Assembly: GCA_017302655.1 (NCBI GenBank)
Contig: JAFLDE010000029.1
Location: 1-40,781 of the forward strand
Direction: 5' to 3'
Length of the DNA stretch: 40,781 nucleotides
Source of the DNA: Burkholderiales bacterium
GTDB taxonomy: Bacteria > Pseudomonadota > Gammaproteobacteria > Burkholderiales > Burkholderiaceae_C
Both the position numbers and the translations under genes were made by a program. Positions 23,169 through 40,781 of this stretch are shown here, piece by piece; within the stretch, counting starts at the first letter, position 1, and the number at the start of each line of letters is the position of its first letter. The notes below the pieces were generated by a model, which did no database searches, was not told the DNA's origin, and saw only the letters and a program-made list of their open reading frames with translations.

Positions 23169-23978
23169 ATGAACACCGAAGCCCTCTGGCAATTCCTCTC
23201 GACACAAGGTAGCGAGTTCGGTTTGAAGATCCTGGCGGCGATCGCCGCGTGGATCTTGGGCCGATGGGTCATCGGCTTTGCGCTGAACCTGTTCAGCCGC
23301 GCCCTTGCCGCCGGCAAGAAGGTCGACGCCACGCTCTCGAACTACCTTCGCTCCATCCTGAACGTGGTGCTGAACATCGTCCTGATCCTGGCCATCCTGG
23401 ACATCTTCGGTGTGCAGACCACCAGCTTCGCGGCCTTGCTGGCCGGCGCTGGCCTGGCCATCGGCACGGCCTGGGGCGGTTTGCTCACGCACTTTGCGGC
23501 CGGTGTCTTCATGCAGGTGCTGCGCCCCTTCAAGGTGGGCGACTTCGTCACCGCCGGCGGCGTCACGGGTACGGTGACGGAGATCGGCCTCTTCGGCACC
23601 ACGCTGGCCACGCCCGACAACGTGCACACCATCGTGGGCAACAACGCGGTGTTCAGCAGCCAGATCCAGAACTTCAGCACCCTGCCCCACCGTCGCGTGG
23701 ACTGCGTGGCCAAGGTCGCCCACAGCGTCGACCCGCTGGACGCCATCGCGCGCCTCAAGCCCGTCATCGCCGCCATCGCCAACGTGAAGGACAGCCCGGC
23801 GCCGGACATCGAGATCCTGCAGTTCACGCCCGAAGGCCCGCTGCTGGCCGTGCGCCCCTACTGCCACACCGACCACTACTGGCAGGTGTACTTCGACACG
23901 CACAAGGCCATCGTGAGCACCTTTGGCGCGGCCGGCTACCCGGTGCCGGAAACGCCCATCGCACCTCGCAATCGCTGA
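23169..23978 (+). CDS. Small-conductance mechanosensitive channel (MscS family)
   Basis: Inner-membrane channel, 269 aa, that opens on hypo-osmotic shock. Three hydrophobic segments (about 18-38, 57-80, 84-110). The pore helix is Gly/Ala-rich (FAALLAGAGLAIGTAWGG) and is followed by the signature LRPFKVGDFVTAGGVTGTVTEIGLFGT at the start of the beta domain. The ATG at 23169 fits the normal MscS N-terminus; the frame is open upstream without homology-like sequence. Confidence 0.9.
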   Translation: MNTEALWQFLSTQGSEFGLKILAAIAAWILGRWVIGFALNLFSRALAAGKKVDATLSNYLRSILNVVLNIVLILAILDIFGVQTTSFAALLAGAGLAIGTAWGGLLTHFAAGVFMQVLRPFKVGDFVTAGGVTGTVTEIGLFGTTLATPDNVHTIVGNNAVFSSQIQNFSTLPHRRVDCVAKVAHSVDPLDAIARLKPVIAAIANVKDSPAPDIEILQFTPEGPLLAVRPYCHTDHYWQVYFDTHKAIVSTFGAAGYPVPETPIAPRNR

Positions 23979-24037
23979 TCTGGCAAGCCGGGCCATGACC
24001 TGCGGCTGGCCCGGCTCGATTGCCTAGAGTGGAGCGC

Positions 24038-25000: not shown

Positions 25001-25001
25001 G

Positions 25002-25793
25002 CTAGCGAACGTCAGGCACCGGCGGGCTGGTCTTCCAGGCCTGCACGCCGCGTTCCACGAATTCCTTCATGCGCTGTTCGCGCGAAAGCTTGTACATGGC
25101 ACGGGCCAGTTGGCCACGCAACTGCGGCGTGTTGCAGTCGCTCTGGTGGCTCAGGGTGAGAAACAGCCGCTCCTGCGCCACCGGGGGCTGCAGTTCCTTG
25201 AGACCGCCGATGTTCAAGCTGGCCATAAAGGCCTGCGCGGGGCTGTCCTCGTACAGCAGGTAGTCGCCTCGCCCGATGCTCAGCATGCGCAGGGCTTGCT
25301 CCAGGCTGGCCGTGCGCGTCAGCTTCAAGCGTTCGCGCATGAAGCGGTCGAACTCTTCGCCGAAGCTGTTGTTGACCACGGTGACGCCTTCCTTGCCTTC
25401 CAGATCGGCCCAGCGCGTGTAGCGAAAGCCCTGCTTCTCGCGCACGATGACCACCGAGCGGGTTTCCCGAAAGGGTGGGTGCACATAGTCCATGTACTCG
25501 GTGCGAGGCACCGTGAAGAAAGCGCCGGCGATCAGATCGATCCGCCCGGAGCGTGCCTCCTCCTGCACCCGGCTCCAGGGGCCGACATAGCGCACGTCGA
25601 TGGGGATGCCGATCTCGCGGGAGAGCCACTGCATCAGCTCTTGGTTGGCCCCCATGAGCAGGTCTGGGTCGGCAGGGTTCCGCCACAAATAGGGAGGGTA
25701 CTGCGGGTTTCCGGATGCCACGAGGCGGGAACAGGTCTGGGCGGAAGCCAAGCCGGCCCACAGCGTGAGCGCAAGCACAAGGAATCGAAGCAT
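25002..25793 (-). CDS. Periplasmic amino-acid-type solute-binding protein (SBP_bac_3 family)
   Basis: A 263-aa type II periplasmic binding protein with a signal peptide (MLRFLVLALTLWAGLASA, cleaved about residue 18-19). The family pattern YPPYLWRNP, GANQELMQWLSREIG, GRIDLIAGAFFTVPRTEYMDY is clear. No permease or ATPase gene accompanies it, so it may serve a distant transporter or have a sensing role. It is divergent from polA with 31 bases between the start codons. Confidence 0.85.
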   Translation of the reverse strand: MLRFLVLALTLWAGLASAQTCSRLVASGNPQYPPYLWRNPADPDLLMGANQELMQWLSREIGIPIDVRYVGPWSRVQEEARSGRIDLIAGAFFTVPRTEYMDYVHPPFRETRSVVIVREKQGFRYTRWADLEGKEGVTVVNNSFGEEFDRFMRERLKLTRTASLEQALRMLSIGRGDYLLYEDSPAQAFMASLNIGGLKELQPPVAQERLFLTLSHQSDCNTPQLRGQLARAMYKLSREQRMKEFVERGVQAWKTSPPVPDVR

Positions 25794-25824
25794 GGCGGCA
25801 TTGTGCAGAACCGAGAATGCCCCG

Positions 25825-28578
25825 ATGAGCGAATCCTCCTCCTTGCTTCTACTGATCGACGGCAGCAGCTACCTGTACCGCGCCTTCCACGCCATGCCGG
25901 ACCTGCGTGGCCCCGAAGGTCAACCCACCGGCGCGGTGCACGGCATGGTGGCCATGCTCAAGCAACTGCGCAGCCACTTTCCCAGCGCCCATGCCGCCTG
26001 CGTGTTCGACGCCTCCGGGCCGACCTTCCGCGACGATTGGTACCCCGAGTACAAGGCGCAACGGGCGCCTATGCCCGAGGAGCTGCGCGCGCAGATTCCG
26101 CTCATCCATGAGGTGGTGAGGCTGCTGGGCTGGCCGGTGCTGACCGTGCCCGGCATCGAGGCCGATGACGCCATCGGCACGCTCGCCCAGCTGGCCGAGG
26201 CGAGCGGGCACGAGGTGCTCATCTCCACCGGCGACAAGGACCTCGCCCAGCTGGTGACCTCCAAGGTCACGCTCATCAACACCATGAGCAACGAGCGCCT
26301 GGACCCGATGGGCGTGCTCGCCAAGTTCGGCGTGCCACCCGAGCGCATCGTGGACTACCTGACCCTGATGGGCGACACCGTGGACAACGTACCCGGCGTC
26401 GAGAAGGTCGGCCCGAAGACCGCCGCCAAGTGGATCGCCGAGTACGGCTCGCTCGACGGTGTGGTGGCCGCTGCCGCCAGCATCAAGGGCGTGGCCGGCG
26501 AGAACCTGCGCAAGGCGTTGGACTGGCTGCCCACGGGCCGCCGCCTCGTCACGGTGAAGTGCGACTGCGACCTCTCCGCCCACCTTCAACCCTGGCCCTC
26601 GGTCGAGGGCCTGGCCTTCCGGCCGGTGGACTCCGAAGGCCTGCTCGCCTTCTACGCCCGCCATGGCTTCAAGACCTGGAAGCGGGAGCTTGAAAGCCAG
26701 GGCGCGGCTGCGACCCCGCAGAGCGCGCCGGGTGGTGCCGAGGAGGCGCCAGCCCCTCCGCCACCACCACAGGACAAGCGCTACGAAACCATCATCCGCT
26801 GGGATCGCTTCGACGCCTGGCTGGCACGCTTGCAGGAGGTCGAGCTGGTGGCGTTGGACACAGAAACCGACTCATTGAGCAACATGGAGGCGCGCATCGT
26901 CGGTCTGTCCTTCAGCGTCGCGCCTTGGGAGGCCTGCTACATCCCGCTGCGCCACGCCGGCATGGACGCGCCCGAGCAACTGCCGCAGGACGAGGTGCTG
27001 GCGCGCCTGCGCCCCTGGCTGGAGGACCGATCGCGCCCCAAGCTCGGCCAGCACGTGAAGTACGACCAGCATGTGTTCGCCAACCATGGCATTGCCGTGC
27101 AGGGCTATGTGCACGACACCATGCTGCAAAGCTATGTGCTGGAAGCGCACAAGGGCCACGGCCTGGAAGCCCTGGCCGAGCGCGAACTGGGCCGCAAGGG
27201 TCTGTCCTACGAAGACCTCTGCGGCAAGGGCGCCAAGCAGATTCCCTTTGCCCAGGTGGAGGTGGCGCGCGCCGCCGAGTATTCCTGCGAAGACAGCGAG
27301 ATGACCCTGGGCGTGCACCATCGCCTGCTGCCGCGCATCCAGGCCGACGAGAAGCTGCGCTTCATCTACGAGCAGATCGAGATGCCGACCTCCAGCCTCT
27401 TGATGCGCGTGGAGCGCAACGGCGTGCTGATCGACGCCGCCATGCTGCAGGCGCAGAGCCATGAACTGGGTCAGCGCCTGCTGGCACTGGAGGGCGAACT
27501 GGCCGAACTGGCCGGGCAGCCCTTCAACATTGGCAGCCCCAAGCAGATCGGCGACATCCTGTTCGGCAAGCTCGGCCTGCCGGTGAAGAAGAAGACGGCC
27601 ACCGGGGCGCCCAGCACCGACGAGGAGGTGCTCACCGAACTGGCCGCCGACTTCCCTTTGCCCAAGAAGATCCTGGAGCACCGCTCGCTGGCCAAGCTCA
27701 AGGGCACGTACACCGACAAGCTGCCGCTGATGATCAACCACCACACCGGCCGCGTGCACACGCACTACGCGCAGGCGGTGGCGGTGACCGGGCGCCTGGC
27801 CAGCAACGACCCGAACCTGCAGAACATCCCCGTGCGCACCCCCGAGGGCCGGCGCATCCGCGAAGCCTTCGTCGCGCCGCCGGGGCATTGCATCGCGTCC
27901 AGCGACTACTCGCAGATCGAGCTGCGCATCATGGCCCACCTCAGCGAGGACGCAGCCATGCTCGCAGCCTTTGCCGGCGGCGAGGACATCCACCGCGCCA
28001 CGGCCAGCCAGGTCTTCAACACACCGCTGGCCGAGGTGTCCGGGGAACAGCGCCGCGCCGCCAAGGCCATCAACTTCGGGCTGATCTACGGGATGGGCGC
28101 CTTCGGACTGGCGGCGCAGCTGGGCATCGAGGTGAAGAGCGCCAAGGATTACATCGACGCCTACTTCGCGCGATTCCAGGGCGTGCGGCGCTACATGGAC
28201 GACACGCGGGCCTCGGCCAAGGCCCGTGGCTACGTGGAGACCGTGTTCGGCCGGCGCCTGTGGCTGCCCGAGATCAACGGTGGCAACGCCATGCGCCGCT
28301 CCGGTGCCGAGCGCCAGGCCATCAACGCGCCCATGCAAGGCACGGCGGCCGACCTCATCAAGCTGGCCATGCTGGCCGTGCAGCGCGAACTCGACGTCCA
28401 GGGTCTGGCCACGCGCATCGTCATGCAGGTGCACGACGAACTGGTGTTCGAGGTGCCCGAGGACGAAGTGGCCTGGGTGCGCGCCGAGGTGCCGCGACTG
28501 ATGGCTGGTGTGGCCGCGCTCAAGGTACCGCTGCTGGCCGAGGTGGGCTTTGGCGCCAGCTGGGAGGCGGCGCACTGA
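25825..28578 (+). CDS. polA: DNA polymerase I
   Basis: Full-length repair and Okazaki-fragment polymerase, 917 aa. N-terminal 5' nuclease (LLIDGSSYLYRAFHA, GDKDLAQLV, GVEKVGPKTAAKW), then a proline-rich linker near 300-325. The proofreading exonuclease keeps the DxE pair (D345, E347 in LDTETDSLSN). The polymerase domain has motif A SSDYSQIELR (D694), motif B RRAAKAINFGLIYGMG and motif C QVHDELVFE (D871). The ATG at 25825 fits the homologous start; an upstream in-frame extension overlaps the promoter of the divergent gene. Confidence 0.98.
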   Translation: MSESSSLLLLIDGSSYLYRAFHAMPDLRGPEGQPTGAVHGMVAMLKQLRSHFPSAHAACVFDASGPTFRDDWYPEYKAQRAPMPEELRAQIPLIHEVVRLLGWPVLTVPGIEADDAIGTLAQLAEASGHEVLISTGDKDLAQLVTSKVTLINTMSNERLDPMGVLAKFGVPPERIVDYLTLMGDTVDNVPGVEKVGPKTAAKWIAEYGSLDGVVAAAASIKGVAGENLRKALDWLPTGRRLVTVKCDCDLSAHLQPWPSVEGLAFRPVDSEGLLAFYARHGFKTWKRELESQGAAATPQSAPGGAEEAPAPPPPPQDKRYETIIRWDRFDAWLARLQEVELVALDTETDSLSNMEARIVGLSFSVAPWEACYIPLRHAGMDAPEQLPQDEVLARLRPWLEDRSRPKLGQHVKYDQHVFANHGIAVQGYVHDTMLQSYVLEAHKGHGLEALAERELGRKGLSYEDLCGKGAKQIPFAQVEVARAAEYSCEDSEMTLGVHHRLLPRIQADEKLRFIYEQIEMPTSSLLMRVERNGVLIDAAMLQAQSHELGQRLLALEGELAELAGQPFNIGSPKQIGDILFGKLGLPVKKKTATGAPSTDEEVLTELAADFPLPKKILEHRSLAKLKGTYTDKLPLMINHHTGRVHTHYAQAVAVTGRLASNDPNLQNIPVRTPEGRRIREAFVAPPGHCIASSDYSQIELRIMAHLSEDAAMLAAFAGGEDIHRATASQVFNTPLAEVSGEQRRAAKAINFGLIYGMGAFGLAAQLGIEVKSAKDYIDAYFARFQGVRRYMDDTRASAKARGYVETVFGRRLWLPEINGGNAMRRSGAERQAINAPMQGTAADLIKLAMLAVQRELDVQGLATRIVMQVHDELVFEVPEDEVAWVRAEVPRLMAGVAALKVPLLAEVGFGASWEAAH

Positions 28579-28582
28579 GCCT

Positions 28583-29131
28583 TCAGGCTGCCTTGCCTCT
28601 TTCGGCGGCATAGCGCCGCCGCCGGTCAGATGGCAAGTCCTGCCGGGCCGGCACCGCACGCTGCAATTGCAGCGTCGCTTCGCGGGTCTGCAGGCGCAGG
28701 TCCGCCAAGGCCAGCCACGATGCCGCACCGCGGCGGGCTTCCAGCGCGCGGGCCGCGCCGAAGGCAAGCACCACGCCGTTCGGCGCCAACTTCGTCAGGC
28801 GCCGGTGCATGCCCATCAGCAGACGTTTGACTTCGTCTGGCCCGGGTGGCCCGGGCATCAGCAGAGCGGCTTGGCCACCGCGCAGCCGGAAGCCAGGATA
28901 GGCCTGCCGCGCCACCTCGCTGTGCAGCATGTCTTCGGCCACATCGGGGGCCAACACCTGGCTGGGGCGCACGCAGGCCTCCAGCATCAACAGCACGCAG
29001 TCGGCTCCTGCGGCTTCGTGGGCGCTGGCGTGCCGATCCTCCATGGCCAGTCGCAGCATGCGCCGGTCGCGCAGCGAGGCACCGGTGTGGCGCTTCGCGC
29101 TGGCCTCCATCTCGTCGATCCAGATCCCCAT
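28583..29131 (-). CDS. Small protein with a degenerate GGDEF-like domain
   Basis: A 182-aa protein starting after a strong GGAGG ribosome-binding site. No family name came to mind, but the middle reads like a decayed diguanylate cyclase. DVAEDMLHSEVARQA resembles the helix before the active site, RLRGGQAALLMP sits where RLGGDEFALLLP is expected, VVLAFGAARAL where VTVSIGVA lies, and LALADLRLQTREA where the C-terminal ADxALYxAK helix lies. The catalytic D/E are absent, so it would not make cyclic di-GMP. The C-terminus is very basic. It is convergent with polA, four bases apart. The domain assignment is an inference by eye. Confidence 0.55.
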   Translation of the reverse strand: MGIWIDEMEASAKRHTGASLRDRRMLRLAMEDRHASAHEAAGADCVLLMLEACVRPSQVLAPDVAEDMLHSEVARQAYPGFRLRGGQAALLMPGPPGPDEVKRLLMGMHRRLTKLAPNGVVLAFGAARALEARRGAASWLALADLRLQTREATLQLQRAVPARQDLPSDRRRRYAAERGKAA

Positions 29132-29264
29132 CCATCCTCCTGAGTACCGCGCACTGCGCTGTTCTTCGTCTGCCTACGCAAGTATCGGCAGCCAGACGGC
29201 TCATGGTCTGGGCATCACTCCCCAAAGCTGTGGTCGTTTCAAGGCTTGACCGCTGACAAGGAAC

Positions 29265-29672
29265 ATGGTTGACCGTGCCGGTAGACTGCCGCCCGTGCAT
29301 TCCCTCCCCGCCTCTCGCCGCATCCTGCTGGGCCGCCTGCTGGCCCTGCTGATGCTGGTCATGGCCCTGCTGCCTGCCGCTTCGCGCGCCTGGGCCGCCG
29401 GGCAAGGCGACTGGGTGGAGCTGTGCACGGCGCAGGGCACACGCTGGGTCTCGCTGAGCACCGGCGAGGCCGGCGAGCCGGACTTCAAGCCGCTCGACAG
29501 CCCCTGCGCGGCCTGCCTGGTGCAGGCCCATGGCATGGCACCGCCGCCGGCGGCGCCGGTCTGGGCACCCACCCCCTTGATGGCCGAGCGCCCGCTCGCC
29601 TTCCTGCATGCGCCACGGCTGTTGCCCGTCTGGCGCAGCGCCTCCTCTCGCGGCCCTCCGGCCTCGCTTTGA
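29265..29672 (+). CDS. DUF2946-type small membrane-anchored protein
   Basis: A 135-aa protein with one hydrophobic segment (about residues 19-44, ILLGRLLALLMLVMALLPAASRAWA). It is followed by the DUF2946 pattern with a lone Cys in WVELCTAQGTRWV and a CxxC in DSPCAACLVQAHG, which suggests metal or redox chemistry outside the membrane. AAGGAA lies before the ATG; a GTG at 29295 is an alternative start. DUF2946 proteins are often found near copper genes, and a PCu(A)C gene follows downstream. Confidence 0.72.
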   Translation: MVDRAGRLPPVHSLPASRRILLGRLLALLMLVMALLPAASRAWAAGQGDWVELCTAQGTRWVSLSTGEAGEPDFKPLDSPCAACLVQAHGMAPPPAAPVWAPTPLMAERPLAFLHAPRLLPVWRSASSRGPPASL

Positions 29673-29841
29673 CCTGCTGCCGCGCCTGCGGCGTGTTGGC
29701 CCTGAGCTTCGGCTGAGCGGCCCACGTCGCCCGTGGCGCGGCCCGCCTGCGGCTTGAAGCGCGGGCGTCGTCGGCCCCTGGGCCGTGCATGTCCGGCCAC
29801 CCCATCCGCGCCCCGCGGCGGGGTGGCGCGAGAGGAGTTCC

Positions 29842-30414
29842 ATGTCTGTCCTTTCCACCCCTTCCCCCACCACGCCCCTGGCTCTGAAGGCCGGCGAGTG
29901 CTGGCGAGTGCCTGCCCTGGACCGTCCCTGGCGCCTTCGCCGCGGGGTGCTGCGCTCCCTGGCCGCCGACGGCAGTGATGCCGTCGGCACCGGCTTGCTG
30001 CTGCCGGGCGACCTCGTCGGCTTCGAGGCCCTGCTGAAACCGCCGCAAGCCTGCACCGCGCTGGCCTGGCGCGATTGCGAACTGCACGCCGTGCAAGCCG
30101 GCACCCCCAGCGACTGGCTGGCCGAAAGCCTCGCCCAGCAGCTGCGTCGCCAGCAGCAGCTGATGAGCTGGCGCCATGGCCCGGTGCCGAAGCGCGTGGA
30201 AGCCCTGCTTGCCGTGCTCTGCCCCGAAGGCGGCGCCGATCCCGAGTTGCTGCCCACGCTGCGCGAGATGGCCCTCGTGCTGGATACCACCTTCGAGTCG
30301 GTGTCGCGCGCCCTGGGCCAGTTGCGCCGCCGCCAGCACCGCCCGCTGCGCACCCGCTGGGCGCCGGTGCGCGCCGAACGGCTGCCCTTCGGCGCCGCGC
30401 TTCGCGCCGCCTGA
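29842..30414 (+). CDS. Crp/Fnr-like transcriptional regulator with degenerate sensor domain
   Basis: A 190-aa protein. The N-terminal part has the outline of a cyclic-nucleotide-binding fold (LLLPGDLVGFEALL near residues 52-65) without clear cyclic nucleotide contacts or Fnr-type cysteines. The C-terminal helix-turn-helix (LREMALVLDTTFESVSRALGQLRRR, about 143-167) is Crp-like. The start has AGAGGAG upstream. It lies between DUF2946 and the PCu(A)C chaperone gene on the same strand, so it probably controls this small set; its signal is unknown. Confidence 0.75.
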   Translation: MSVLSTPSPTTPLALKAGECWRVPALDRPWRLRRGVLRSLAADGSDAVGTGLLLPGDLVGFEALLKPPQACTALAWRDCELHAVQAGTPSDWLAESLAQQLRRQQQLMSWRHGPVPKRVEALLAVLCPEGGADPELLPTLREMALVLDTTFESVSRALGQLRRRQHRPLRTRWAPVRAERLPFGAALRAA

Positions 30415-30454
30415 ACTCCTTGACCCCATCCCGTTCCATGAAAAGGACTTGACG

Positions 30455-30907
30455 ATGAAGACCTGCCTCCCCGCCCTGACCCTCGTAGCTTGCTGCCTCG
30501 TCGGCAGCGCCATGGCCCAGACCACCGCCACCGAACCCTGGGTGCGCGGCACCCTGAGCCCGGCGCAGAAGGCCACCGGCCTGTTCGTGCAGTTGCAAAA
30601 CGCCCAGGGCGCTCGCCTGGTGACAGCCGCCAGCCCGGCCGCCGGCATCGTGGAGATCCACGAGATGGCGATGGTGGACGGCGTGATGCGCATGCGCGCT
30701 CTGAAAGACGGCCTGGAGCTGCCGGCCGGCCAGACCGTGCACCTGAAGCCCGGCGGCTATCACGTCATGCTCATCGACCTGAAGCAGCCGCTCAAGGAAG
30801 GCGACACCGTACCCGTCACGCTCACCCTGAAGGGCAAGAACGGCAAGGACGAGGTGCTGAGCCTGCAGGCCCCGGTGCGCCAGTCGGCGGCGCCGATGAA
30901 GCACTGA
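30455..30907 (+). CDS. PCu(A)C-type periplasmic copper chaperone
   Basis: A 150-aa periplasmic protein with a signal peptide (MKTCLPALTLVACCLVGSAMA). The mature part carries the Cu(I) ligands H69, M80, H103 and M105 in the family pattern HEMAMVDGVMRMR and HLKPGGYHVML. Known members deliver copper to the CuA or CuB centre of cytochrome oxidases. It is the third gene of a small plus-strand set with DUF2946 and a Crp-like regulator, and ends next to a convergent regulator gene. Confidence 0.92.
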   Translation: MKTCLPALTLVACCLVGSAMAQTTATEPWVRGTLSPAQKATGLFVQLQNAQGARLVTAASPAAGIVEIHEMAMVDGVMRMRALKDGLELPAGQTVHLKPGGYHVMLIDLKQPLKEGDTVPVTLTLKGKNGKDEVLSLQAPVRQSAAPMKH

Positions 30908-31972
30908 TCAGCGCAGCGGCAGGCCTTCGTGCAAGGCCAGGCGTTCCAGCGCAGACTCGAACAGGGCGCGTGATGCGCCGGCCACCTGGTGCAAGTAGGC
31001 GTGCAACTGAGCGTCGGCCGAGTCGCGATGGAGGCAGCCGGCGCTGTAGGCCTCGAAGCTGGACAGCTGCATCAAGAGCTCGGCGACATGGCGGGGGCAT
31101 TCGCACGCCAATGTCGGCGAGAGCCCCGCGAAGCTGGTGAGGATGGCGTCGTCGTAGCGGCGCGGCGGCACCTGGGCGGCCACCTGCGCCGGCATGGCGA
31201 ATGCATGCTCGGGCGACGCGCTGCGGGCGGCGGGCTCCGCAGCGGTCGCCGTGGCCAGCGCGAGCTGGTCCATCAGCTGACCGAGCCACGCGCCCAGCAC
31301 CTCGTCGTCCGCGGGCTCGCGCAGCGAGGCCATGCCGGCCTCGGCCAGTTCGCCGATGACCGGAGTCCCCGCGAACCGATAGACCACGCCCACCCGTCGG
31401 GCACCACTCGCCTCCCGAGCGGCGGCCAAGTCGGTGGGCAGCGGCAGTCGGAGCTCGGGGGCATGCCACAGCAGCAGGTCGGCCTGCGTGCCAGCCTGCG
31501 CGGCCTCGTCCAGCGAACCCACCACGCTGAGCAAACGACCCGCCAGAGCGAGGTGCCGCGCCACGCGGGGGCGGTGCAAGCGCGCGGCCAAGGCCGAGCC
31601 GACCACGAGCACGCGCAAGCGCTGGTGCCCTGAGGCCGCCCTTCGCCCCGTCGCCGCCATCGACCCGGGCGAACCAAGCCGGGCTTGCTGAGCGACCTCA
31701 TGGAGCTGCGCCGCGTCGAGCGCCGCAAGGGTGCCGATGGCATGCCCCTGCTCGGTCAATTGACGCAGCATCAGCACGCGCTGCACATCGGCGGGCGAGT
31801 ACAGCCGATGCCCCGAAGCCGCGGTGGCGGGGTGCACGGCCTGGTAGCGCTGCTCCCAGATGCGCAGGGTGGCCACCGGCATGCCGACCATGCGTGCCAC
31901 AGCCCCACTGCGGAAGGTCGGTGCGGCGGCGCTGGGCGCAACTGCCGGCGCGTCGCTTGGTGCTTGCTTCAT
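30908..31972 (-). CDS. MerR-type regulator related to CarH/LitR
   Basis: A 354-aa regulator. Residues 20-88 are a MerR helix-turn-helix of the CarH/LitR kind (RSGAVARMVGMPVATLRIWEQRYQ, GHRLYSPADVQRVLML). From about residue 118 a Rossmann-like part follows (RLRVLVVGSALAARLHRP, LLSVVGSL), where CarH binds adenosylcobalamin. The ExH and DxHxxG cobalamin motifs are not visible, so direct B12-based light sensing is unlikely. It is divergent from a run of photolyase-type genes, which such regulators control in other bacteria. The regulatory link is inferred. Confidence 0.8.
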   Translation of the reverse strand: MKQAPSDAPAVAPSAAAPTFRSGAVARMVGMPVATLRIWEQRYQAVHPATAASGHRLYSPADVQRVLMLRQLTEQGHAIGTLAALDAAQLHEVAQQARLGSPGSMAATGRRAASGHQRLRVLVVGSALAARLHRPRVARHLALAGRLLSVVGSLDEAAQAGTQADLLLWHAPELRLPLPTDLAAAREASGARRVGVVYRFAGTPVIGELAEAGMASLREPADDEVLGAWLGQLMDQLALATATAAEPAARSASPEHAFAMPAQVAAQVPPRRYDDAILTSFAGLSPTLACECPRHVAELLMQLSSFEAYSAGCLHRDSADAQLHAYLHQVAGASRALFESALERLALHEGLPLR

Positions 31973-32058
31973 TGGTGGTGAGTTTGTTTTGAGTTCGAAT
32001 AATACCGATTTCCAGCAGCCTAATGCCTACATGAGTCGTTTCTGAAGTTGCAGGAGAT

Positions 32059-32448
32059 ATGCTGCCTCGCATGGCAGCGCATGACCCCTCCAGACCCACC
32101 CTCTACTACGACGGGGCGTGTCCGGTGTGTGCCCGCGAGATCGCGCTGTACCGCCGCCAACCCGGCGCCGAGGCGCTGCACTGGGTCGACGCCGCCCGCT
32201 GCGAGCCCGCCGAGCTGGGCATTGGGCTGAGCCGGCAGGCCGCCCTGGCTGCCCTGCACCTTCGCCAGCCCGATGGCTCCTTGGTGGCGGGTGCTTCGGC
32301 CTTTGCAGCGCTCTGGTTGGCGCTGCCTCGCTGGCGCTGGCTGGGTCGGCTGTTCAGCGCGCCGGCGGGCGCTTTCTTGCTGGAGCACGCCTACCGCGCT
32401 TTCCTCGCCTTGCGGCCGCTCTGGCGGCGCGCGCAGCCCACGCGATGA
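32059..32448 (+). CDS. DUF393 (DCC family) thiol-disulfide oxidoreductase-like protein
   Basis: A 129-aa protein with the family signature LYYDGACPVCAREIALYRR; the CPVC pair lies at residues 21-24. The C-terminal part RWRWLGRLF ... YRAFLALRPLWRR is typical. AGGAG lies only two bases before the ATG at 32059 and 14 before the ATG at 32071, so the start is uncertain. First gene of the photolyase run, overlapping the FAD oxidoreductase gene by four bases. Its partner is unknown. Confidence 0.85.
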   Translation: MLPRMAAHDPSRPTLYYDGACPVCAREIALYRRQPGAEALHWVDAARCEPAELGIGLSRQAALAALHLRQPDGSLVAGASAFAALWLALPRWRWLGRLFSAPAGAFLLEHAYRAFLALRPLWRRAQPTR

Positions 32449-33539
32449 AGCCCGCGCTGCGCCGCGTGGCGATCGTGGGTGCGGGCATCGCTGGCGCCAC
32501 CCTGGCGCGCCGGTTGACCGATGTCGGCATCGGGGTGCAAGTGTTCGAGAAGTCCCGTGGGTTGGGCGGACGGCTGGCCACGCGCCGCACCGACTGGACG
32601 GCGCCTGACGGCCGCGTGCACCGCGCCCGCTTCGACCACGGGGCCCCGGCCTTCGCCGCCCACACGCCGGCCTTCCGCCGCTTCATGGAGCAAGCGCAGC
32701 GCGCCGGCCGGGTGACGACTTGGTCGCCAAGGCTGGCTCCAGCACTTCCAATCGCGCAGGATGCCGCGCCCCTGTGGCTGCCCATGCCCGACATGCCGGC
32801 GCTGTGCCGGCACTTGCTGCAGGGCCTGGACCTGCGAACCGGCTGCACCATCGATGCGCTGCGGCGCGGTTCGGGCGGCTGGTCGCTGCAGTCCGCGGGG
32901 GCTTGCGCGGGCGATGGCTTCGATGCCGTCGTGCTCGCCATGCCAGCCCCGCAGGCGGCCGTGCTGCTGCACCCCCACCAACTCGGCTGGGCCGAACACG
33001 CGGCTCGCGTGGTCTGGCAACCGGGCTGGGTGCTGATGGGGGTGGCCGAAGCCGCCGACGCCGCACCGTACTGGGACATGGGCCGCCCATCTGCAGGGCC
33101 GCTGTCCTGTGTGTTGCGCACCGACGCCCGGCCAGGACGCGAGCGCATCGCCGGCCTGACGCACTGGGTGGCGCACGCCACACCCGCCTGGAGCCAGCAG
33201 CACCTGGAGGAGGCGCCCTTCGAGGTGCAGGCCGCGCTGCTGAACGCTCTGCAATCGGCGCTCGCCGAATGGCAGGTTCACGTGACGGCCTGGCGTCATG
33301 TGGCGGTGCACCGCTGGCGCTACGCCTCGGCCCTCGGCCCGGCCGACCCGGCCGTTGCCCTCGAAAGAGACAGCACGCACTGGTGGCATGAAGCCACCGG
33401 CATTGGGGCTTGCGGGGATGCCGTGGGTGACGCCCTGGGCGACCCGCTGGCTGGCGCGGGGGTCGAGCTCGCCTGGTGCTCTGCCACAGCCCTGGCCGCG
33501 CACATGGTGGGTGGGCAGCCGGGACAGCCCGCCCCATGA
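32445..33539 (+). CDS. FAD-dependent amine oxidase/renalase-like oxidoreductase
   Basis: A 364-aa flavoprotein. The N-terminal Rossmann motif VAIVGAGIAGATLARRL is followed by VFEKSRGLGGRLATRR, and the C-terminal FAD contact GIGACGDAVGDALGDPLAGAGVELAW closes the fold. This matches NAD(P)/FAD proteins of the renalase-like group that accompany bacterial photolyase genes. Start and end overlap the neighbours by four bases (ATGA both sides). The substrate is unknown. Confidence 0.87.
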   Translation: MKPALRRVAIVGAGIAGATLARRLTDVGIGVQVFEKSRGLGGRLATRRTDWTAPDGRVHRARFDHGAPAFAAHTPAFRRFMEQAQRAGRVTTWSPRLAPALPIAQDAAPLWLPMPDMPALCRHLLQGLDLRTGCTIDALRRGSGGWSLQSAGACAGDGFDAVVLAMPAPQAAVLLHPHQLGWAEHAARVVWQPGWVLMGVAEAADAAPYWDMGRPSAGPLSCVLRTDARPGRERIAGLTHWVAHATPAWSQQHLEEAPFEVQAALLNALQSALAEWQVHVTAWRHVAVHRWRYASALGPADPAVALERDSTHWWHEATGIGACGDAVGDALGDPLAGAGVELAWCSATALAAHMVGGQPGQPAP

Positions 33540-33712
33540 AGCCGGCCACGCCCTCCGCTTTTCGCGGCAACAAGCAAGGATTGCCGGGCAAGGCCTGTGC
33601 GACCTGCGGGCGCTGGATGAGCTGGCGCAAGCGCTGGGCGCGCCAGTGGGACGAGGTGAAGCACTGCTCGGACGCCTGCCGCAAGCATCGCCGCAGCACC
33701 GGCACACCATGA
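33536..33712 (+). CDS. DUF2256 small zinc-ribbon-like protein
   Basis: A 58-aa protein with two Cys pairs, C21/C24 (KACATCGRWMSWRKRW) and C44/C48 (KHCSDACRKHRR), which fits a small metal-binding ribbon. This pattern is DUF2256, a family commonly found just before FeS-type photolyase genes. The start lies within the end of the FAD gene (ATGA) and the stop within the start of the photolyase gene (ATGA). Function unknown. Confidence 0.88.
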   Translation: MKPATPSAFRGNKQGLPGKACATCGRWMSWRKRWARQWDEVKHCSDACRKHRRSTGTP

Positions 33713-35259
33713 AGCCGCTGCGCACCCTGGTGCTGGTGCTGGGCGACCAGCTCGACCTGCACGCTGCCGCCTTCGATGGCTTCGACCCCGCCCAGGACGC
33801 GGTGTGGATGGCCGAGGCGGACGAAGAGTCGACGCATGTCTGGTCGAGCAAGCAGCGCATCGCCATCTTTCTGGCCGCCATGCGCCACTTCGCGGAAGCC
33901 CTGCGCGCGGCCGGCCGGCCGCTGCACTACCTTCGCCTGGACGACCCTGGGAACTGCGGCAGCCTGGCCGGCAATCTGCAGGCGGCGCTGACCCGACTCG
34001 CGCCACAGCAGGTGGTGATGACGGCGCCGGGAGACTGGCGCGTCTGGCAATCGCTGAAGGCGGTGGTCGCGGCAGCGGGCCTGGTGTTGGACGTGCGCGA
34101 AGACCGGCACTTCTTCTGCACCGTGCGCGAGTTCGCGGCACATGCCAAGGGGCGCAAGACCCTGCGCCTGGAGTACTTCTACCGCGAGCTGCGCCAGCGC
34201 CACGCGGTGCTGATGGAGGGCGACCAGCCCTGCGGCGGCCAGTGGAACTTCGACGCCGACAACCGCGAATCCTTCGGGTCGCACGGCCCGGGTTCGCTAC
34301 CGCCCCGCCCCATGTTCGAGCCGGACGCACTGACACGCGAGGTCATCGCGTTCGTCGAGTCCCGCTTCGCCGCGCACCCCGGCGCACTCGCCCGCTTCGC
34401 CTGGCCGGTGACGCGAGAGCAGGCGCTGGCAGCGCTGCATCGCTTCATCGACGAGCGCCTGCCGCTCTTTGGTCGCTACGAGGACGCGATGTGGCCGGGC
34501 GAGCCCTGGCTGTACCACTCGCAACTGTCGGCTGCGCTCAACCTCAAGCTGCTCTCGGCGCGCGAGGTGGTGCAGGCGGCCGAAGCGGCGTACCGCGACG
34601 GCCGCGCGCCCATTGAAAGCGTCGAGGGTTTCATCCGCCAGATCCTGGGCTGGCGCGAGTACGTGCGCGGCATCTACTGGACACAGATGCCCGGCTATGC
34701 CTCGCTCAACGCGCTGGAAGCCACCCAGGACCTGCCCGCCTGGTACTGGAGCGGCGACACCGACATGGCCTGCCTGCGCGACGCCATCCGCCAGACCCTG
34801 GATCACGGCTACGCGCACCACATCCAGCGCCTGATGGTCACCGGCCTCTTCGCGCTGCTGCTGGGCGTGCGGCCGCAGCAGGTGCACGCCTGGTACCTGG
34901 CCGTGTACGTGGACGCGGTGGAGTGGGTGGAACTGCCCAACACCCTGGGCATGAGCCAGTACGGTGACGGCGGCCTGATGGCCAGCAAGCCCTATGTGGC
35001 GACCGGCAAGTACATCCAGCGCATGGGCGGCGGCTGCGCCGGCTGCCGGTACGACCCGGCGCTGCGCACCGGCGACAAGGCCTGCCCCTTCACCACGCTG
35101 TACTGGGACTTCCTGATGCGCCACGAACAGCGCCTGGCGGGTAACGCGCGCATGGCGCTGCAGGTGAAGAACGTGGGGCGCCTGGCGCCGGCCGAGCGCG
35201 TGGCGGTGGCGCAGCGCGCCGAAGCCATCCGTGCCGGCGCCGTGGGTGGAAGTTCATGA
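33709..35259 (+). CDS. Iron-sulfur bacterial photolyase/cryptochrome (FeS-BCP, PhrB-like)
   Basis: A 516-aa flavoprotein of the FeS bacterial cryptochrome/photolyase group, known for light-driven repair of (6-4) photoproducts. The N-terminal alpha/beta domain starts TLVLVLGDQLDLH. The four cluster cysteines are present at C355, C443, C446 and C459, each offset by five from the Agrobacterium PhrB positions as I remember them. The FAD domain includes FIRQILGWREYVRGIYW and NTLGMSQYGDGGLMASKPY. Start fixed by the four-base overlap with DUF2256; it ends by overlapping the next gene. Confidence 0.95.
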   Translation: MKPLRTLVLVLGDQLDLHAAAFDGFDPAQDAVWMAEADEESTHVWSSKQRIAIFLAAMRHFAEALRAAGRPLHYLRLDDPGNCGSLAGNLQAALTRLAPQQVVMTAPGDWRVWQSLKAVVAAAGLVLDVREDRHFFCTVREFAAHAKGRKTLRLEYFYRELRQRHAVLMEGDQPCGGQWNFDADNRESFGSHGPGSLPPRPMFEPDALTREVIAFVESRFAAHPGALARFAWPVTREQALAALHRFIDERLPLFGRYEDAMWPGEPWLYHSQLSAALNLKLLSAREVVQAAEAAYRDGRAPIESVEGFIRQILGWREYVRGIYWTQMPGYASLNALEATQDLPAWYWSGDTDMACLRDAIRQTLDHGYAHHIQRLMVTGLFALLLGVRPQQVHAWYLAVYVDAVEWVELPNTLGMSQYGDGGLMASKPYVATGKYIQRMGGGCAGCRYDPALRTGDKACPFTTLYWDFLMRHEQRLAGNARMALQVKNVGRLAPAERVAVAQRAEAIRAGAVGGSS

Positions 35260-36485
35260 ACACGCAGGAGCCTTTCCCCGCCACGCTGGCCGCGGCGCAC
35301 GAGCGCATCGCGGCCGTGCGGGTGGCCGAGTACGCGCGCACCCGCAACGCCCTGGGCGGCGCGGTGACGCGACTCTCGCCCTACATCACCCACGGCTTCG
35401 TCAGCCTGCCCGAGGTGCTGGCCGGCGTGGCCGGCGGGGCCGCCGCCCAGCGCCTGAGCCTGCAGCACAAGTTCGTGTTTGAACTGGGCTGGCGCGAGTT
35501 CTTCCAACACCTGTGGCAGCACCGGGGCTCGGGCATCCTGGCCGACACCCACCCCGGCCCGCTGCCCGCGCAGGCCTACACGCGCGAACTGCCGGCCGAC
35601 ATCCGCCAAGCGCGCACCGGCGTGCCCGTCATCGACCAGGCCGTGCGCGAGCTGTACGCCACCGGCTACCTGCACAACCACGCGCGCATGTGGCTGGCCA
35701 GCTATGTGGTGCACCTGCGCAAGGTGCATTGGCGCGCCGGCGCCGACTGGATGCAGGCGCACCTGCTGGATGGCGACCTGGCCAGCAACCACCTGAGCTG
35801 GCAGTGGGTGGCTGGAACCGGCAGCGCCAAGCCTTATCTGTTCAACGCCGACAACGTGGCCCGCCATGCCCCGACCGTCTGGCACAGCCCGGGCAGCGTG
35901 GTGGACGCTTCCTACGAGACGCTGGAAGCACGGGCCCGCACGCCTGAACCCGTGCCGGCCCAGCCCGTGGGCGAAGGCGTGGAGGAACCGCTGGTGTACA
36001 CCGAACCCCCACTGCCCCTGCAGGCGAACGGCCCCACCTTGGCCAGCGAACTCTCGGAGCGCGACGTCTGGATCGTCCACCCCTGGGCGCTGGGCGCGCC
36101 GCCCGCCGACCTGCCCGCAGGCTGCCGGACATTGGCCTGGTGGCCGGCTGAACATCACGAGGCCTGGCCCTGGAGCGCCGCGCGCTGGCGCTTCGTGGGC
36201 ACACGCATGGCCGAGCTTGACGGGCCACCCTGGCTCGGCAACCAGCGGCAGCTGGCCCAAGCCCTGTCCACGGCGCGCTCGGTGCAGACCCTGGGCAACG
36301 GTCATGTGATGGCCTGGCTGCCTGCCTGCGTGACGGTGCGGCCGGCGCCTCGGCTGTTTGCCGAGGTGGATGGGCCCTGCCCGTCCTTCTTCGCCTGGTG
36401 GAAGCGGGCCACGCAAGGCATGCGCAGCCTGTCCGATCTGCCGGGCCTGCAGACGCTGGAACTTTCCGCAGCGACACCGCCATGA
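35256..36485 (+). CDS. Photolyase-like FAD-binding protein lacking the N-terminal antenna domain
   Basis: A 409-aa protein. Residues 1 to about 225 match the C-terminal helical FAD-binding domain of photolyases: NALGGAVTRLSPYITHGFVS, FELGWREFFQHLWQ, NHARMWLASYVVHL and LDGDLASNHLSWQWVAGTGS. The usual N-terminal alpha/beta antenna domain is absent. Residues about 260-400 form another region with alternating strands and helices (ERDVWIVHPWALGAPP, RWRFVGTRMAEL, ARSVQTLGNGHVMAWLP). This may be a relocated alpha/beta domain. It overlaps both neighbouring photolyase-type genes by four bases. Repair activity is not proven by sequence. Confidence 0.85.
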   Translation: MNTQEPFPATLAAAHERIAAVRVAEYARTRNALGGAVTRLSPYITHGFVSLPEVLAGVAGGAAAQRLSLQHKFVFELGWREFFQHLWQHRGSGILADTHPGPLPAQAYTRELPADIRQARTGVPVIDQAVRELYATGYLHNHARMWLASYVVHLRKVHWRAGADWMQAHLLDGDLASNHLSWQWVAGTGSAKPYLFNADNVARHAPTVWHSPGSVVDASYETLEARARTPEPVPAQPVGEGVEEPLVYTEPPLPLQANGPTLASELSERDVWIVHPWALGAPPADLPAGCRTLAWWPAEHHEAWPWSAARWRFVGTRMAELDGPPWLGNQRQLAQALSTARSVQTLGNGHVMAWLPACVTVRPAPRLFAEVDGPCPSFFAWWKRATQGMRSLSDLPGLQTLELSAATPP

Positions 36486-36925
36486 GAAGCGATGCCGCGC
36501 TGCAGCTGGTGTGGTTCAAGCGCGACCTGCGCGTGTCCGACCACGAACCCCTTGCGCGGGCAGCAGCGCGTGGCCCGGTGGCTGGGCTCTTCGTCTACGA
36601 GCCCAGCGTGCTGCGGAGCCCGGACTTCGACGCGTCGCATCTCGACTTCATCAACGACTGCCTTGCGGAGCTGCGCGAGGCGCTCGCGCGACTGGGCTGC
36701 CCGCTGTTGCTGCGCGTGGACGAGTGCCCGCAAGTGCTGCAGGACCTGGACGCCGAGCACGGCCTGCACACCCTGTGGAGCCACGAGGAAACTGGGCTCG
36801 AAGTGACCTACGCGCGCGACCGGCGGGTGGGCGCCTGGTGCCGAGCTCAAGGCATTCCCTGGCAGGAGCTTCCGCAGAGCGGCGTGGTGCGCCGGCTGCG
36901 CAGCCGCGACGGGTGGGCGCGCCGC
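36482..36925 (+). pseudogene. Photolyase, N-terminal fragment cut at the junction
   Basis: About 148 codons of a classical cryptochrome/photolyase: LQLVWFKRDLRVSDHEPLAR, AGLFVYEPSVL, LWSHEETGLEVTYARDRRV, and GVVRRLRSRDGWARR where the linker to the FAD domain begins. Full-length relatives have about 450-500 residues, so the whole FAD domain is missing. The start overlaps the preceding gene (ATGA), so the gene was intact at its 5' end. Beyond about 36,920 the sequence belongs to a different gene and probably a different organism. The frame happens to stay open into nagZ, but that is an accident. Confidence 0.88.
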
Positions 36926-36930
36926 TGTGC
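36905..36930. other. Chimeric junction between betaproteobacterial and alphaproteobacterial DNA
   Basis: Photolyase coding sequence can be followed to about 36,925 and SPOR-domain coding sequence can be recognised from about 36,920 in another frame. Both genes lack the other half. The overlap zone contains GGCGCGCC (36916-36923), a GC-rich palindrome that could have served as microhomology. No insertion sequence, tRNA, integrase or att-like repeat is seen. An assembly join of two genomes fits best; recombination in a cell cannot be excluded from one sequence. Confidence 0.85.
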
Positions 36931-37154
36931 AAATTGGGGCCTTCTCGACCGAACAGGCGGCCGAACGCGCCTATGCGGACGTCGCGGCGGCCTTTCCGCA
37001 GTTCGCCACGGGGCGGACCCGCGGCATTCGGCGTGTGACCACTTCGGATGGTCGGACGGTTTACCGCACCACGGTCAACGGCCTGTCGGCGGACGAGGCA
37101 CGGGCCTTCTGCGGCGCGATGCGTGCGTCCGGACGGGACTGCCTGGTTCAGTGA
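36927..37154 (+). pseudogene. SPOR-domain protein, C-terminal fragment
   Basis: The C-terminal 75 or so residues of a SPOR-domain protein: VQIGAFSTEQAAERAYADV, with the domain's second half VYRTTVNGLSADEARAFCGAM and a closing CLVQ. SPOR domains bind denuded peptidoglycan at division sites. The N-terminal part is missing because of the junction; the GTG at 36927 is not a credible start. The stop overlaps the GTG start of nagZ. The gene order SPOR, nagZ, scpA, scpB is as in Caulobacterales. Confidence 0.85.
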
Positions 37155-38203
37155 CCCAGACCTCGGCGGCGATCTACGGCCTGTCGGGCACGTCGCTGTC
37201 GGCGGGGCAGCGTGCTTTCTTCAGGGACGCGTCGCCGTGGGGCTTCATCCTCTTCAAGCGCAATGTGCGCGATGCTGATCAGCTGAGGGCGCTGACGTCC
37301 GAGCTGAGAGACACGGTCGGGCGCGATGCGCCGGTTCTGATCGACCAGGAAGGTGGCCGGGTCCAGCGAATGGGGCCGCCGCACTGGCGAAAGTACCCTC
37401 CGGCTTCGGCCTATCTTGCGGCGACGAAGGGCGACGTTGAGGCGGCGGCTGATTTGGTGAGGGTGGGACACCGGCTGATGGCCGATGACCTGCGCACCGT
37501 CGGTATCAATGTCGATTGTGCGCCGGTCCTGGATGTGCCGATCCAAGGCTCGACCGACGCGATCGGCGACCGTGCCTTCGCCCATGGTCCTGAGGCGGTG
37601 ACGCGGCTGGGCCGTGCTGCGGCGGAGGGTCTGTTGGCAGGCGGTGTGCTCCCAGTCATCAAGCACATTCCCGGCCATGGGCGAGCGATGTGCGACAGTC
37701 ATCATGATCTACCAGAGGTGAAGCTGGATCTGGTCAGCCTGGATGGATGGGATTTCGCGCCGTTCAAGGCGCTCAGGGACCTGCCGGCGGCGATGACGGC
37801 CCATGTGGTGTTCAAGGCGGCGGACGCCGAGCAACCAGCCACGACATCACATGACACACTGGAGATCATTCGCGAGCGGCTGGGATTCGGGGGGCTGTTG
37901 ATCACCGACGACCTGTCAATGAATGCCCTGAAGGGCTCGTTGCGGGAGCGGGCGGATCGGGCGCTGACGGCGGGATGTGATATCGCCCTGCATTGCAACG
38001 GTGACCTGAACGAGATGCGTCAGGTGGCCGAGGCGGCCGTGGCGCTGCAAGGCCGTTCACTGGAGAGGGCGGAGGCAGCGTTGGCGCGGATCGCGACCGC
38101 ACCGGAGCCGTTCGACGCCGAGGCCGAGGCGGCCCGGTTCGCCGCCGCCATAAAGGGTCATCTGGACGCCAAGGCGGGCCCGGCTATCGGCGAGGCACCA
38201 TGA
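37151..38203 (+). CDS. nagZ: Beta-N-acetylhexosaminidase NagZ
   Basis: Glycoside hydrolase family 3, single domain, 350 aa. It removes N-acetylglucosamine from recycled anhydromuropeptides in the cytoplasm. Signatures are LIDQEGGRVQR, the KHIPGHGRAMCDSHHDLP loop (K171, D182 and H184) that holds the general acid/base pair, and the nucleophile D253 in LLITDDLSM. It starts with GTG overlapping the SPOR gene stop (GTGA) and ends overlapping scpA (ATGA). Codon use is visibly different from the left part, with more GCG, CGG and GAT. Confidence 0.93.
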   Translation: MTQTSAAIYGLSGTSLSAGQRAFFRDASPWGFILFKRNVRDADQLRALTSELRDTVGRDAPVLIDQEGGRVQRMGPPHWRKYPPASAYLAATKGDVEAAADLVRVGHRLMADDLRTVGINVDCAPVLDVPIQGSTDAIGDRAFAHGPEAVTRLGRAAAEGLLAGGVLPVIKHIPGHGRAMCDSHHDLPEVKLDLVSLDGWDFAPFKALRDLPAAMTAHVVFKAADAEQPATTSHDTLEIIRERLGFGGLLITDDLSMNALKGSLRERADRALTAGCDIALHCNGDLNEMRQVAEAAVALQGRSLERAEAALARIATAPEPFDAEAEAARFAAAIKGHLDAKAGPAIGEAP

Positions 38204-39024
38204 GCGACGCCTTTCAGCCCAATCTGGATTTTTCAGCCGTCGACAACGCTGACGCCGGCGAAGCCTTTGTCGTGGATCTGGAAGGGTTCGAAGGGCCGCT
38301 GCACGTCCTCTTGGCGCTGGCGCGGACGCAGAAGGTCGACCTCTTGAAGCTGTCGATCACCAAGCTGGCGGAACAGTATCTGGCCTTTGTGCATGAGGCG
38401 CGGCGGCGCAATTTTGCGCTAGCGGCGGACTATCTGGTGATGGCGTCGTGGCTGGCCTATCTGAAATCGCGGCTGCTGCTGCCCAAGCCGGAAGCCAAGG
38501 TCGAGGGCGAGATCCCGGCCGAGGAGATGGCCCAGCGGCTGGCCTTCCGGCTGATGAAGCTCGAAGCGATGCGCAAGGCGGTCGAGGCGCTGACGAGCGG
38601 GCCGGTGCTGAACCGCGATGTGTTCGGGCGCGGCGATCCGGAAGCGATCCAGGTCATTCCGTCCAACCGACTGGACGCCAATCTCTACGACCTCATGGCG
38701 GCCTACGTCTCTCAGCGCCGGCGCGAGGCCGAGCGGCACTATAATCCGACGCAGCGGGTGGAGGCCTTTGCGCTGGAGGAGGCGCGCGACTGGATGTTGA
38801 AACAGCTGCCGCGGCTGAGCGCCTGGACCGAACTGCGAGCGATCACGCCTGACGGACGCGCCGATGGCGACGGGCCGACCGGTGCGTCCTATCTGGCCTC
38901 GACCTTGTCGGCGAGCCTGGAGCTGGTCAAGGAAGGCCGGCTGAGCGCCAGACAGATGGAGGCCTTCGATCCGCTGTTCGTGAAGTCGCGCCGCGACACC
39001 CTGGTTCTGGAGGCGGAGGGATGA
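38200..39024 (+). CDS. scpA: Segregation and condensation protein A (kleisin)
   Basis: Kleisin subunit (274 aa) of the SMC-ScpAB complex that folds and segregates the chromosome. The N-terminal part carries the family pattern FVVDLEGFEGPLHVLLALARTQKVDLLKLSITKLAEQYL and ADYLVMASWLAYLKSRLLLPKPE. The C-terminal winged helix ends LEAEG. It overlaps nagZ and scpB by four bases, a compact operon. Confidence 0.95.
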   Translation: MSDAFQPNLDFSAVDNADAGEAFVVDLEGFEGPLHVLLALARTQKVDLLKLSITKLAEQYLAFVHEARRRNFALAADYLVMASWLAYLKSRLLLPKPEAKVEGEIPAEEMAQRLAFRLMKLEAMRKAVEALTSGPVLNRDVFGRGDPEAIQVIPSNRLDANLYDLMAAYVSQRRREAERHYNPTQRVEAFALEEARDWMLKQLPRLSAWTELRAITPDGRADGDGPTGASYLASTLSASLELVKEGRLSARQMEAFDPLFVKSRRDTLVLEAEG

Positions 39025-39683
39025 TCAAATTCGCCCCAGACGAGGCCGAGATCGAACGCCGGGTCGAGGCCCTGTTGTTCGCTGCCGCCGGGCCATTGAC
39101 CTTGGCCGAGATCGCGCGGCGACTGCCCGAGGGTGCCGATGCGGGTCAGGCCATTGCGGCGCTGCGCGCGCGTTTCGCCGGGCGCGGGGTCGAGCTGGTC
39201 TGCGTGGCCGACCGCTGGGCCTTCCGCACGGCCCAGGACCTAGCCTTCATGATGACCGAGCAGAGGGAAGAGCCGCGCAAGCTGTCCAAGGCGGCGCTGG
39301 AGACCTTGGCCATCATCGCCTACCACCAGCCGACTACGCGCGCCGAGATCGAAAGCGTTCGTGGCGTCGGCCTGTCCAAGGGCACGCTGGACCTCTTGCT
39401 CGAACTGGGGATGGTGCGGCTGCGCGGACGGCGACGGACGCCAGGGCGGCCTGTGACCTACGGGACGACGGAGCACTTCCTGGAGCATTTCGGACTGGCG
39501 CATCTGGCTGACCTGCCGGGCGCGGTGGATATGCGGGCGGCGGGCCTGCTTGACCTGTCCTTGCCGGCAGACTTCATGGCCCCGGACCCTTCACGAGCGG
39601 GTGACGAGGATCTGGATCCGATCGAGGACGGTGATGACGCCCCTGAGTTCGCTCAGGACTTCGTGACCGAGGACGAAGAGTAG
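39021..39683 (+). CDS. scpB: Segregation and condensation protein B
   Basis: Partner of ScpA in the SMC complex (220 aa) with two winged-helix domains. Family segments are RRVEALLFAAAGPLTLAEIARRLP near residues 13-36 and LSKAALETLAIIAYHQPTTRAEIESVRGVG. The C-terminus is an acidic, low-complexity tail (DEDLDPIEDGDDAPEF ... EDEE). The start overlaps scpA (ATGA). Confidence 0.95.
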   Translation: MIKFAPDEAEIERRVEALLFAAAGPLTLAEIARRLPEGADAGQAIAALRARFAGRGVELVCVADRWAFRTAQDLAFMMTEQREEPRKLSKAALETLAIIAYHQPTTRAEIESVRGVGLSKGTLDLLLELGMVRLRGRRRTPGRPVTYGTTEHFLEHFGLAHLADLPGAVDMRAAGLLDLSLPADFMAPDPSRAGDEDLDPIEDGDDAPEFAQDFVTEDEE

Positions 39684-39740
39684 CTCGGCCCTATTTCCGC
39701 CCCTTGTCTTTTGAAGAGTTCCAGCGGGGAGGACGCGCAG

Positions 39741-40415
39741 ATGAAGTTGATCGCCGTCTTGGCGCTGACATTGCTCATGGCGCAACCGACGCGCGCGCAA
39801 CCCGCCGATCCGGTCGAGACGGCTCGCACCGAGCTGGAAGCAGTGATGACACGTGAGTCCCTGATCAGGGAGCTCGCCGGAATGGGGGCGATGGACCAAT
39901 TGGTGCGGCAGCGTTTTCTCGCTGCCCGCCGTGACGCGTCCGATGCTGACCGTGAGCGCTTGGAATCCGAGGCCTGGCCGATCGCTGAGGCCGTTGACCA
40001 GGCCAATACCGCGCGGATGCGCGACATCCTGGCAGGCCAAGACGGGTGGTTTCCAATCTCTCAGTTCGGCCGACACGCGGCTGACGGTGCCTATTCGGTC
40101 GTTCAGCACTCCGGGAACCTGGATTTGATGCGCGACACCTTGGCCAGGATGGCACCGCTGGCTGGAACTGTAGATCTGGATGGAAGCCAATACGCTCGTC
40201 TCTGGGATCGAACGGCTGTGATGGAAGGCCGGCCGCAGCGCTACGCCACCCAAGGTACGACCTGCGCCAACGGTCGCTACGTCTTGCCGGACGACATTGA
40301 GGACCCGGATAATATCGACGTTAGACGCGCTGCTCTCGGCCTGGACTCGTCGGCTGACTATGTCGCGGGTCTCAATCAGGCCTATGGTCGATGCTCTTCG
40401 CCCGCCGGCGATTAA
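39741..40415 (+). CDS. DUF6624-type exported protein
   Basis: A 224-aa protein with a signal peptide (MKLIAVLALTLLMAQPTRAQ). The region around residues 100-175 (GWFPISQFGRHAADGAYSVVQHSGN ... YARLWDRTAVMEGRPQRYATQG) fits the DUF6624 pattern. Two cysteines near the C-terminus could form a disulfide outside the cytoplasm. GGGGAGG lies about eight bases before the ATG at 39741; an upstream GTG at 39711 is less likely because it would spoil the signal. It follows scpB by 57 bases, where many Caulobacterales have tatA. Function unknown. Confidence 0.75.
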   Translation: MKLIAVLALTLLMAQPTRAQPADPVETARTELEAVMTRESLIRELAGMGAMDQLVRQRFLAARRDASDADRERLESEAWPIAEAVDQANTARMRDILAGQDGWFPISQFGRHAADGAYSVVQHSGNLDLMRDTLARMAPLAGTVDLDGSQYARLWDRTAVMEGRPQRYATQGTTCANGRYVLPDDIEDPDNIDVRRAALGLDSSADYVAGLNQAYGRCSSPAGD

Positions 40416-40480
40416 ATTTCGGAAATGGCGCGTTCTGACTGCGGGATGGGGTTAGGGTGCCCGTGAATGGAGATCCGCCC

Positions 40481-40781
40481 ATGAATCGCCGCGCCTTTCT
40501 GATGTCCGCCCCGGCCTTCGCGCTGATCGCTACGGCCTGTGGTCAGCAAGGTGGTGGAGCCGGGGCTCCGGCGAGAACCACTCCAGTGTTTGGGACGTTC
40601 GGGTTCGATACGGCGGGGGTGGACCCCCCCATCGCGCCGGGGGGGGACTTTTTCGGGTTTGCCAACGGGGGTTGGGTTCGGACCACGGAAATTCCGGCGG
40701 ACCGGTCCAGCTTCAACAGCTTCACGCGGCTGGCAATCCAGGCCGACGAGCGCACCAAGGTCATCATCGAAGAAGCGGCTG
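40481..40781 (+). CDS. M13 family metallopeptidase, N-terminal part
   Basis: About 100 codons are visible before the window ends. The signal-like start MNRRAFLMSAPAFALIATAC ends at a possible lipobox cysteine (C20), so this may be a lipoprotein. The following GFDTAGVDPPIAPGGDFFGF and ANGGWVRTTEIPADRSSFNSF are the usual beginning of the mature M13 (neprilysin/PepO-like) peptidases. The zinc-site HExxH lies beyond the window. It contains runs of seven C and eight G without loss of frame. Confidence 0.85.
   Translation, partial: MNRRAFLMSAPAFALIATACGQQGGGAGAPARTTPVFGTFGFDTAGVDPPIAPGGDFFGFANGGWVRTTEIPADRSSFNSFTRLAIQADERTKVIIEEAA

Follow-up and report, generated by a model that had tools for sequence, protein, structure and literature searches.

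A contig of the Burkholderiales draft genome UWPOB_BURK1 that is probably an assembly chimera with Caulobacteraceae DNA

Does a change from betaproteobacterial to alphaproteobacterial DNA inside a photolyase gene of a Burkholderiales draft genome record a recombination between two classes, or an error of metagenome assembly? The window, that is, the whole stretch of DNA that was analyzed, is the entire contig C126 (40,781 bp) of a genome of 4,432,668 bp in 203 contigs that is scored 99.96% complete and 0.99% contaminated. Table 1 of the source report (PMC8103865) lists this genome, GCA_017302655.1, as UWPOB_BURK1 (Burkholderiaceae, 4.44 Mbp, 203 contigs), one of 86 genomes from a photosynthetic phosphorus-removal bioreactor (photobioreactor). 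A preliminary description of the window had placed the switch within 36850..37154 and had preferred an assembly chimera to inter-class recombination. We compared each side of the switch with related genomes and found support for both statements.

The left part of the window resembled Burkholderiales DNA. Its features were as follows.

1..36906, no strand: Burkholderiales-like (betaproteobacterial) part that ends within the photolyase gene, assigned from the matches of relatives and the polA protein
33298-35259, + strand: open frame, DPRP-type photolyase-related gene (Pfam PF04244, E 3.7e-76)
35256-36485, + strand: FAD_binding_7-type photolyase-related gene (Pfam PF03441, E 2.2e-28)
36482..36927, + strand: N-terminal third of a deoxyribodipyrimidine photolyase gene, cut at the join (Pfam PF00875, E 5.5e-21, residues 9-134)

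The comparison with relatives covered positions 24000-36906, and within 1-24000 seven frames were scanned by Pfam. The stretch 24000-36906 was matched in all 29 relatives searched, the window genome itself being left out, and the top same-genus stretch showed 84% identity over 2.7 kb. The polA protein (DNA polymerase I, 25765-28578) was 73% identical to that of Mitsuaria sp. 7, the best of 572 matching records in the plasmid collection, and the eight next best records were from Burkholderia and Caballeronia (61-63%). Closer to the join, 24 of 59 relatives had matches to 36,000-36,930 (E <= 0.001), often short ones, and a search of plasmid records with the DNA of 35256-36906 returned short Deinococcus matches alone (six records), which were uninformative on the host. 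Three photolyase/cryptochrome-related genes (DPRP, FAD_binding_7 type, and DNA_photolyase) stand in a row at 33298-36927; in several relatives the matches to these three genes also lay close together, sometimes in a different order. Because gene order around the photolyases varies among relatives, it was left out of the evidence.

The third of these genes was incomplete. The frame from 36,482 showed 46-59% identity with photolyases of relatives in 9/9 loci tested, which were the best hits of the relatives' search with 36,000-36,930. When the 564-aa open frame of one relative was used as the query, matching ended at window base 36,937. The corresponding open frames in four relatives were 533-564 aa long (counted stop to stop), which indicated that roughly the last two thirds of the window photolyase is missing, as the preliminary description had stated. 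It had also proposed that the lost C-terminus be sought on another contig. A protein search of the window genome with one relative's photolyase did not find this remainder there; its only hits were the fragment in the window itself and another photolyase, on contig C142 (pieces with 32% and 29% identity).

The right part was traced by a NagZ protein scan of GTDB r220 (one genome per species), from which the best 80 of 544 confirmed matches were fetched as loci. Among these best 80, the top match was JAFLCS010000003.1 of Caulobacterales bacterium UWPOB_CAULO2, with 100% identity over 350/350 residues, and the second was Brevundimonas aveniformis with 77%. UWPOB_CAULO2 (2.57 Mbp, Caulobacteraceae, Brevundimonas) is named in table 1 of the same source report (PMC8103865). 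At the DNA level, 36,907-40,618 was identical to JAFLCS010000003.1 (locus L020) over 3,712 bp, beginning inside the interval given by the preliminary description. The features of this part were as follows.

36928..37154, + strand: C-terminal part of a Caulobacterales SPOR-domain gene with its N-terminus missing, corresponding to the 3' end of the 245-aa gene in L020
37151..38203, + strand: nagZ-type glycoside hydrolase 3 gene, as in UWPOB_CAULO2 (350/350 residues, PF00933)
38200..39683, + strand: scpA and scpB, as in UWPOB_CAULO2 (Pfam PF02616 and PF04079; DNA identical in L020)
39711..40781, + strand: DUF6624 gene and the first part of an M13 peptidase gene, assigned to the Caulobacteraceae population from Pfam and the comparison with UWPOB_CAULO2

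When the whole UWPOB_CAULO2 genome was compared with window positions 30,000-40,781, matching ran from 36,903 onwards, with one 36-bp match elsewhere, and no match to 30,000-36,902 was present in that genome. The host contig in UWPOB_CAULO2 is 418 kb long and carries the complete SPOR gene (245 aa, L020 5267-6004; Pfam SPOR PF05036, E 3.9e-08), of which about 82 codons (36,907-37,154) remain in the window; the N-terminal loss noticed in the preliminary description was thus evident from the intact counterpart. Seven mismatches to UWPOB_CAULO2 were clustered at 40,619-40,659, after which the last 122 bp matched again. These seven fall in a 41-bp stretch inside the beginning of the M13 peptidase gene, where they alter several residues; the remainder of the 3.9 kb is identical. 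Differences between strains may account for them, or perhaps another local misassembly close to the end of the contig; the simplest chimera account leaves them unexplained.

The arrangement in UWPOB_CAULO2 was also found in the other loci. Among the best 80 of 544 matches, nagZ was followed by scpA in 80/80 fetched loci, L020 included. More than 800 bp of DNA upstream of nagZ was available for 74 loci, and 72 of these had a SPOR match as the immediate neighbour on that side. L020 was among these 74, the six loci with less upstream DNA having been left out of the count, and the two loci without a SPOR match at the threshold were L023 and L051. The conservation of the nagZ neighbours among the fetched loci indicated that UWPOB_CAULO2 has the normal arrangement, and the same counts ruled out UWPOB_CAULO2 as the chimeric genome. 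The right-hand 3.9 kb of the window is the same SPOR-nagZ-scpA-scpB cluster as in Caulobacterales, except that the SPOR gene, intact in UWPOB_CAULO2, is truncated here. Among relatives of the window genome, 36,930-38,200 was matched in 6/59, the genome itself again being left out of the count, and all matches were about 100 bp or shorter. The window genome has a separate scpA on contig C24 (33% identity) and two other NagZ-type genes on C2 and C101 (39% and 37%). The sequences that flank the piece in UWPOB_CAULO2 had no near-identical copy in the window genome; they gave nine and one weaker matches, the longest being 67% over 627 bp. On the taxonomic assignment of the two sides, the preliminary description was correct in that a betaproteobacterium-like left part gives way to an alphaproteobacterial right part within a gene.

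It had further reported a change in codon use. GC3 did fall across the join, from 0.86-0.90 in three left genes to 0.71-0.83 in four right genes, and GC skew changed there from about 0 to +0.12; the left side also reached a skew of +0.116, at 10,001-11,000. By themselves, GC3 and GC skew are weak evidence and insufficient to prove a switch of source.

The join itself was resolved to a short interval, which lies within a long open frame.

36907..36927, no strand: join of up to 21 bases, exactly alphaproteobacterial and probably native photolyase sequence too
36482..38203, + strand: spurious 573-aa open frame with the photolyase N-terminus, the SPOR stretch out of frame, and NagZ in frame (Pfam)

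The match to L020 begins exactly at 36,907, and 36,906 is the final base for which an alphaproteobacterial origin can be excluded. The bases 36,907-36,927 are readable as either side: the photolyase frame through them reads R-D-G-W-A-R-R, as in photolyases, and the next codon is TGT in the window versus Trp (TGG) in 8/9 relatives. These readings suggested that the two genomes probably have up to 21 bp in common at the join, a word that could be shorter. A 20-bp core of this word, allowing at most one mismatch, had no site in the window genome besides the window's own. The longest word common to window positions 1-36906 and the 13-kb L020 was 16 bp, and shared 11- to 16-mers between these two sequences were 1.5- to 2.6-fold above a random model. 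For genomes of these sizes and GC contents, about 45 shared 21-mers and about 1e-5 shared 33-mers are expected at random. The smallest default word size of SPAdes is 21. In another study, metaSPAdes was run with word sizes of 21, 33, 55, and 77 (PMC8567270). The start of the join word has a 14-bp near-copy (93%) 86 bp upstream, within the photolyase (36821-36834 versus 36907-36920), which is possibly a chance occurrence in GC-rich DNA.

We also considered whether the join marks the border of a transposon or phage, or a tRNA site, and found nothing of either kind in the features scanned. No tRNA was found in the window, Pfam assigned none of the 17 scanned window frames to a mobile-element family, and the repeats around the join were short or imperfect ones of 14-24 nt. 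The statement in the preliminary description that no mobile element lies at the join agreed with these results.

Each part of the contig matched a different organism in its native context, and genes were cut at the join with the remainder not found elsewhere in the bin. From these sequence comparisons, we consider it very probable that the contig is an inter-species metagenome assembly chimera and not the product of natural gene transfer; the normal context of the right piece in UWPOB_CAULO2 and the failure to find the photolyase remainder in the bin favored the same choice in the preliminary description. On this view, a 3.9-kb fragment from a co-resident Brevundimonas-like bacterium (the UWPOB_CAULO2 population) would have been attached by the assembler to a Burkholderiales contig. 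Both organisms presumably occurred in one sample set, given the identity of the genome with UWPOB_BURK1. The link would have been made through a chance-shared word of up to 21 bp, and a chance link of such length in a poorly covered stretch is, we infer, a sufficient mechanism. The hybrid contig may then have been binned whole with its larger part.

The published procedure is compatible with this sequence of events. According to the methods text of PMC8103865, three samples were sequenced on an Illumina HiSeq 2500 (2 x 150 bp), and SPAdes 3.9.0 was run in metagenomic mode on the samples together and one by one, followed by binning with MetaBAT2 and then dRep; for the word sizes, its assembly passage states default parameters and gives nothing further. 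If the two genomes of this project came from different assemblies, this would account for the presence of the same 3.7 kb in both. Chimeric contigs have been described in species of low to intermediate coverage with all assemblers tested (PMC7881036). The relative abundances on three dates in PMC8103865 were 0.38/0.42/0.55 for UWPOB_BURK1 (rising) versus 1.58/0.91/0.12 for UWPOB_CAULO2 (falling), and because they diverge, read depth should tell the two apart.

A real and very recent inter-class recombination in the reactor would have inserted Brevundimonas housekeeping genes, 3.9 kb or more, into the Burkholderiales photolyase gene, and sequence identity would be expected between members of one community in that case also. 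However, the piece begins inside one gene and extends to the contig end, so that one border is visible, and this border had no mobile element, integration site, or flanking homology (17 frames scanned), with only short repeats near it. The cargo would consist of redundant housekeeping genes (scpA and NagZ). Moreover, an insertion should leave the rest of the photolyase on its far side, possibly on another contig, whereas this rest was not found in a genome scored 99.96% complete, although an assembly gap could hide it. We regard such a transfer as highly improbable. A library chimera of ligated fragments, or a scaffolding error, in place of a shared-word graph error would likewise yield a hybrid contig with cut genes, but it is very unlikely here, as the join contains no N gap, the product of a single ligation would on general reasoning be too shallow in depth for assembly, and ligation does not favor a join in a stretch that fits both genes.

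With an assembly chimera as the preferred reading, 3.9 kb of Caulobacteraceae DNA sit in the draft genome, which also has an extra scpA, scpB, and nagZ as well as a false photolyase/NagZ frame of 573 aa. The domains of this frame are DNA_photolyase (PF00875) at residues 9-134 and Glyco_hydro_3 (PF00933) from residue 254, and it may have entered the deposited record as a fusion protein through automatic annotation. On this reading, the photolyase/SPOR junction is an artifact. These genes and this frame could be mistaken for real ones in surveys of gene transfer, searches for fusion proteins, and domain databases, and the contamination score of 0.99% is low enough to pass the usual filters. The chimera matters as a correction only and is worth flagging in the deposited genome.

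Interspecies translocations are among the extensive misassemblies distinguished by MetaQUAST (PMC10174551), and in chimeras of that class two parts of a contig likewise align to two co-occurring species. The contig described here shows no difference of substance from them; its parents belong to different classical classes, and for this reason the chimera is easy to see.
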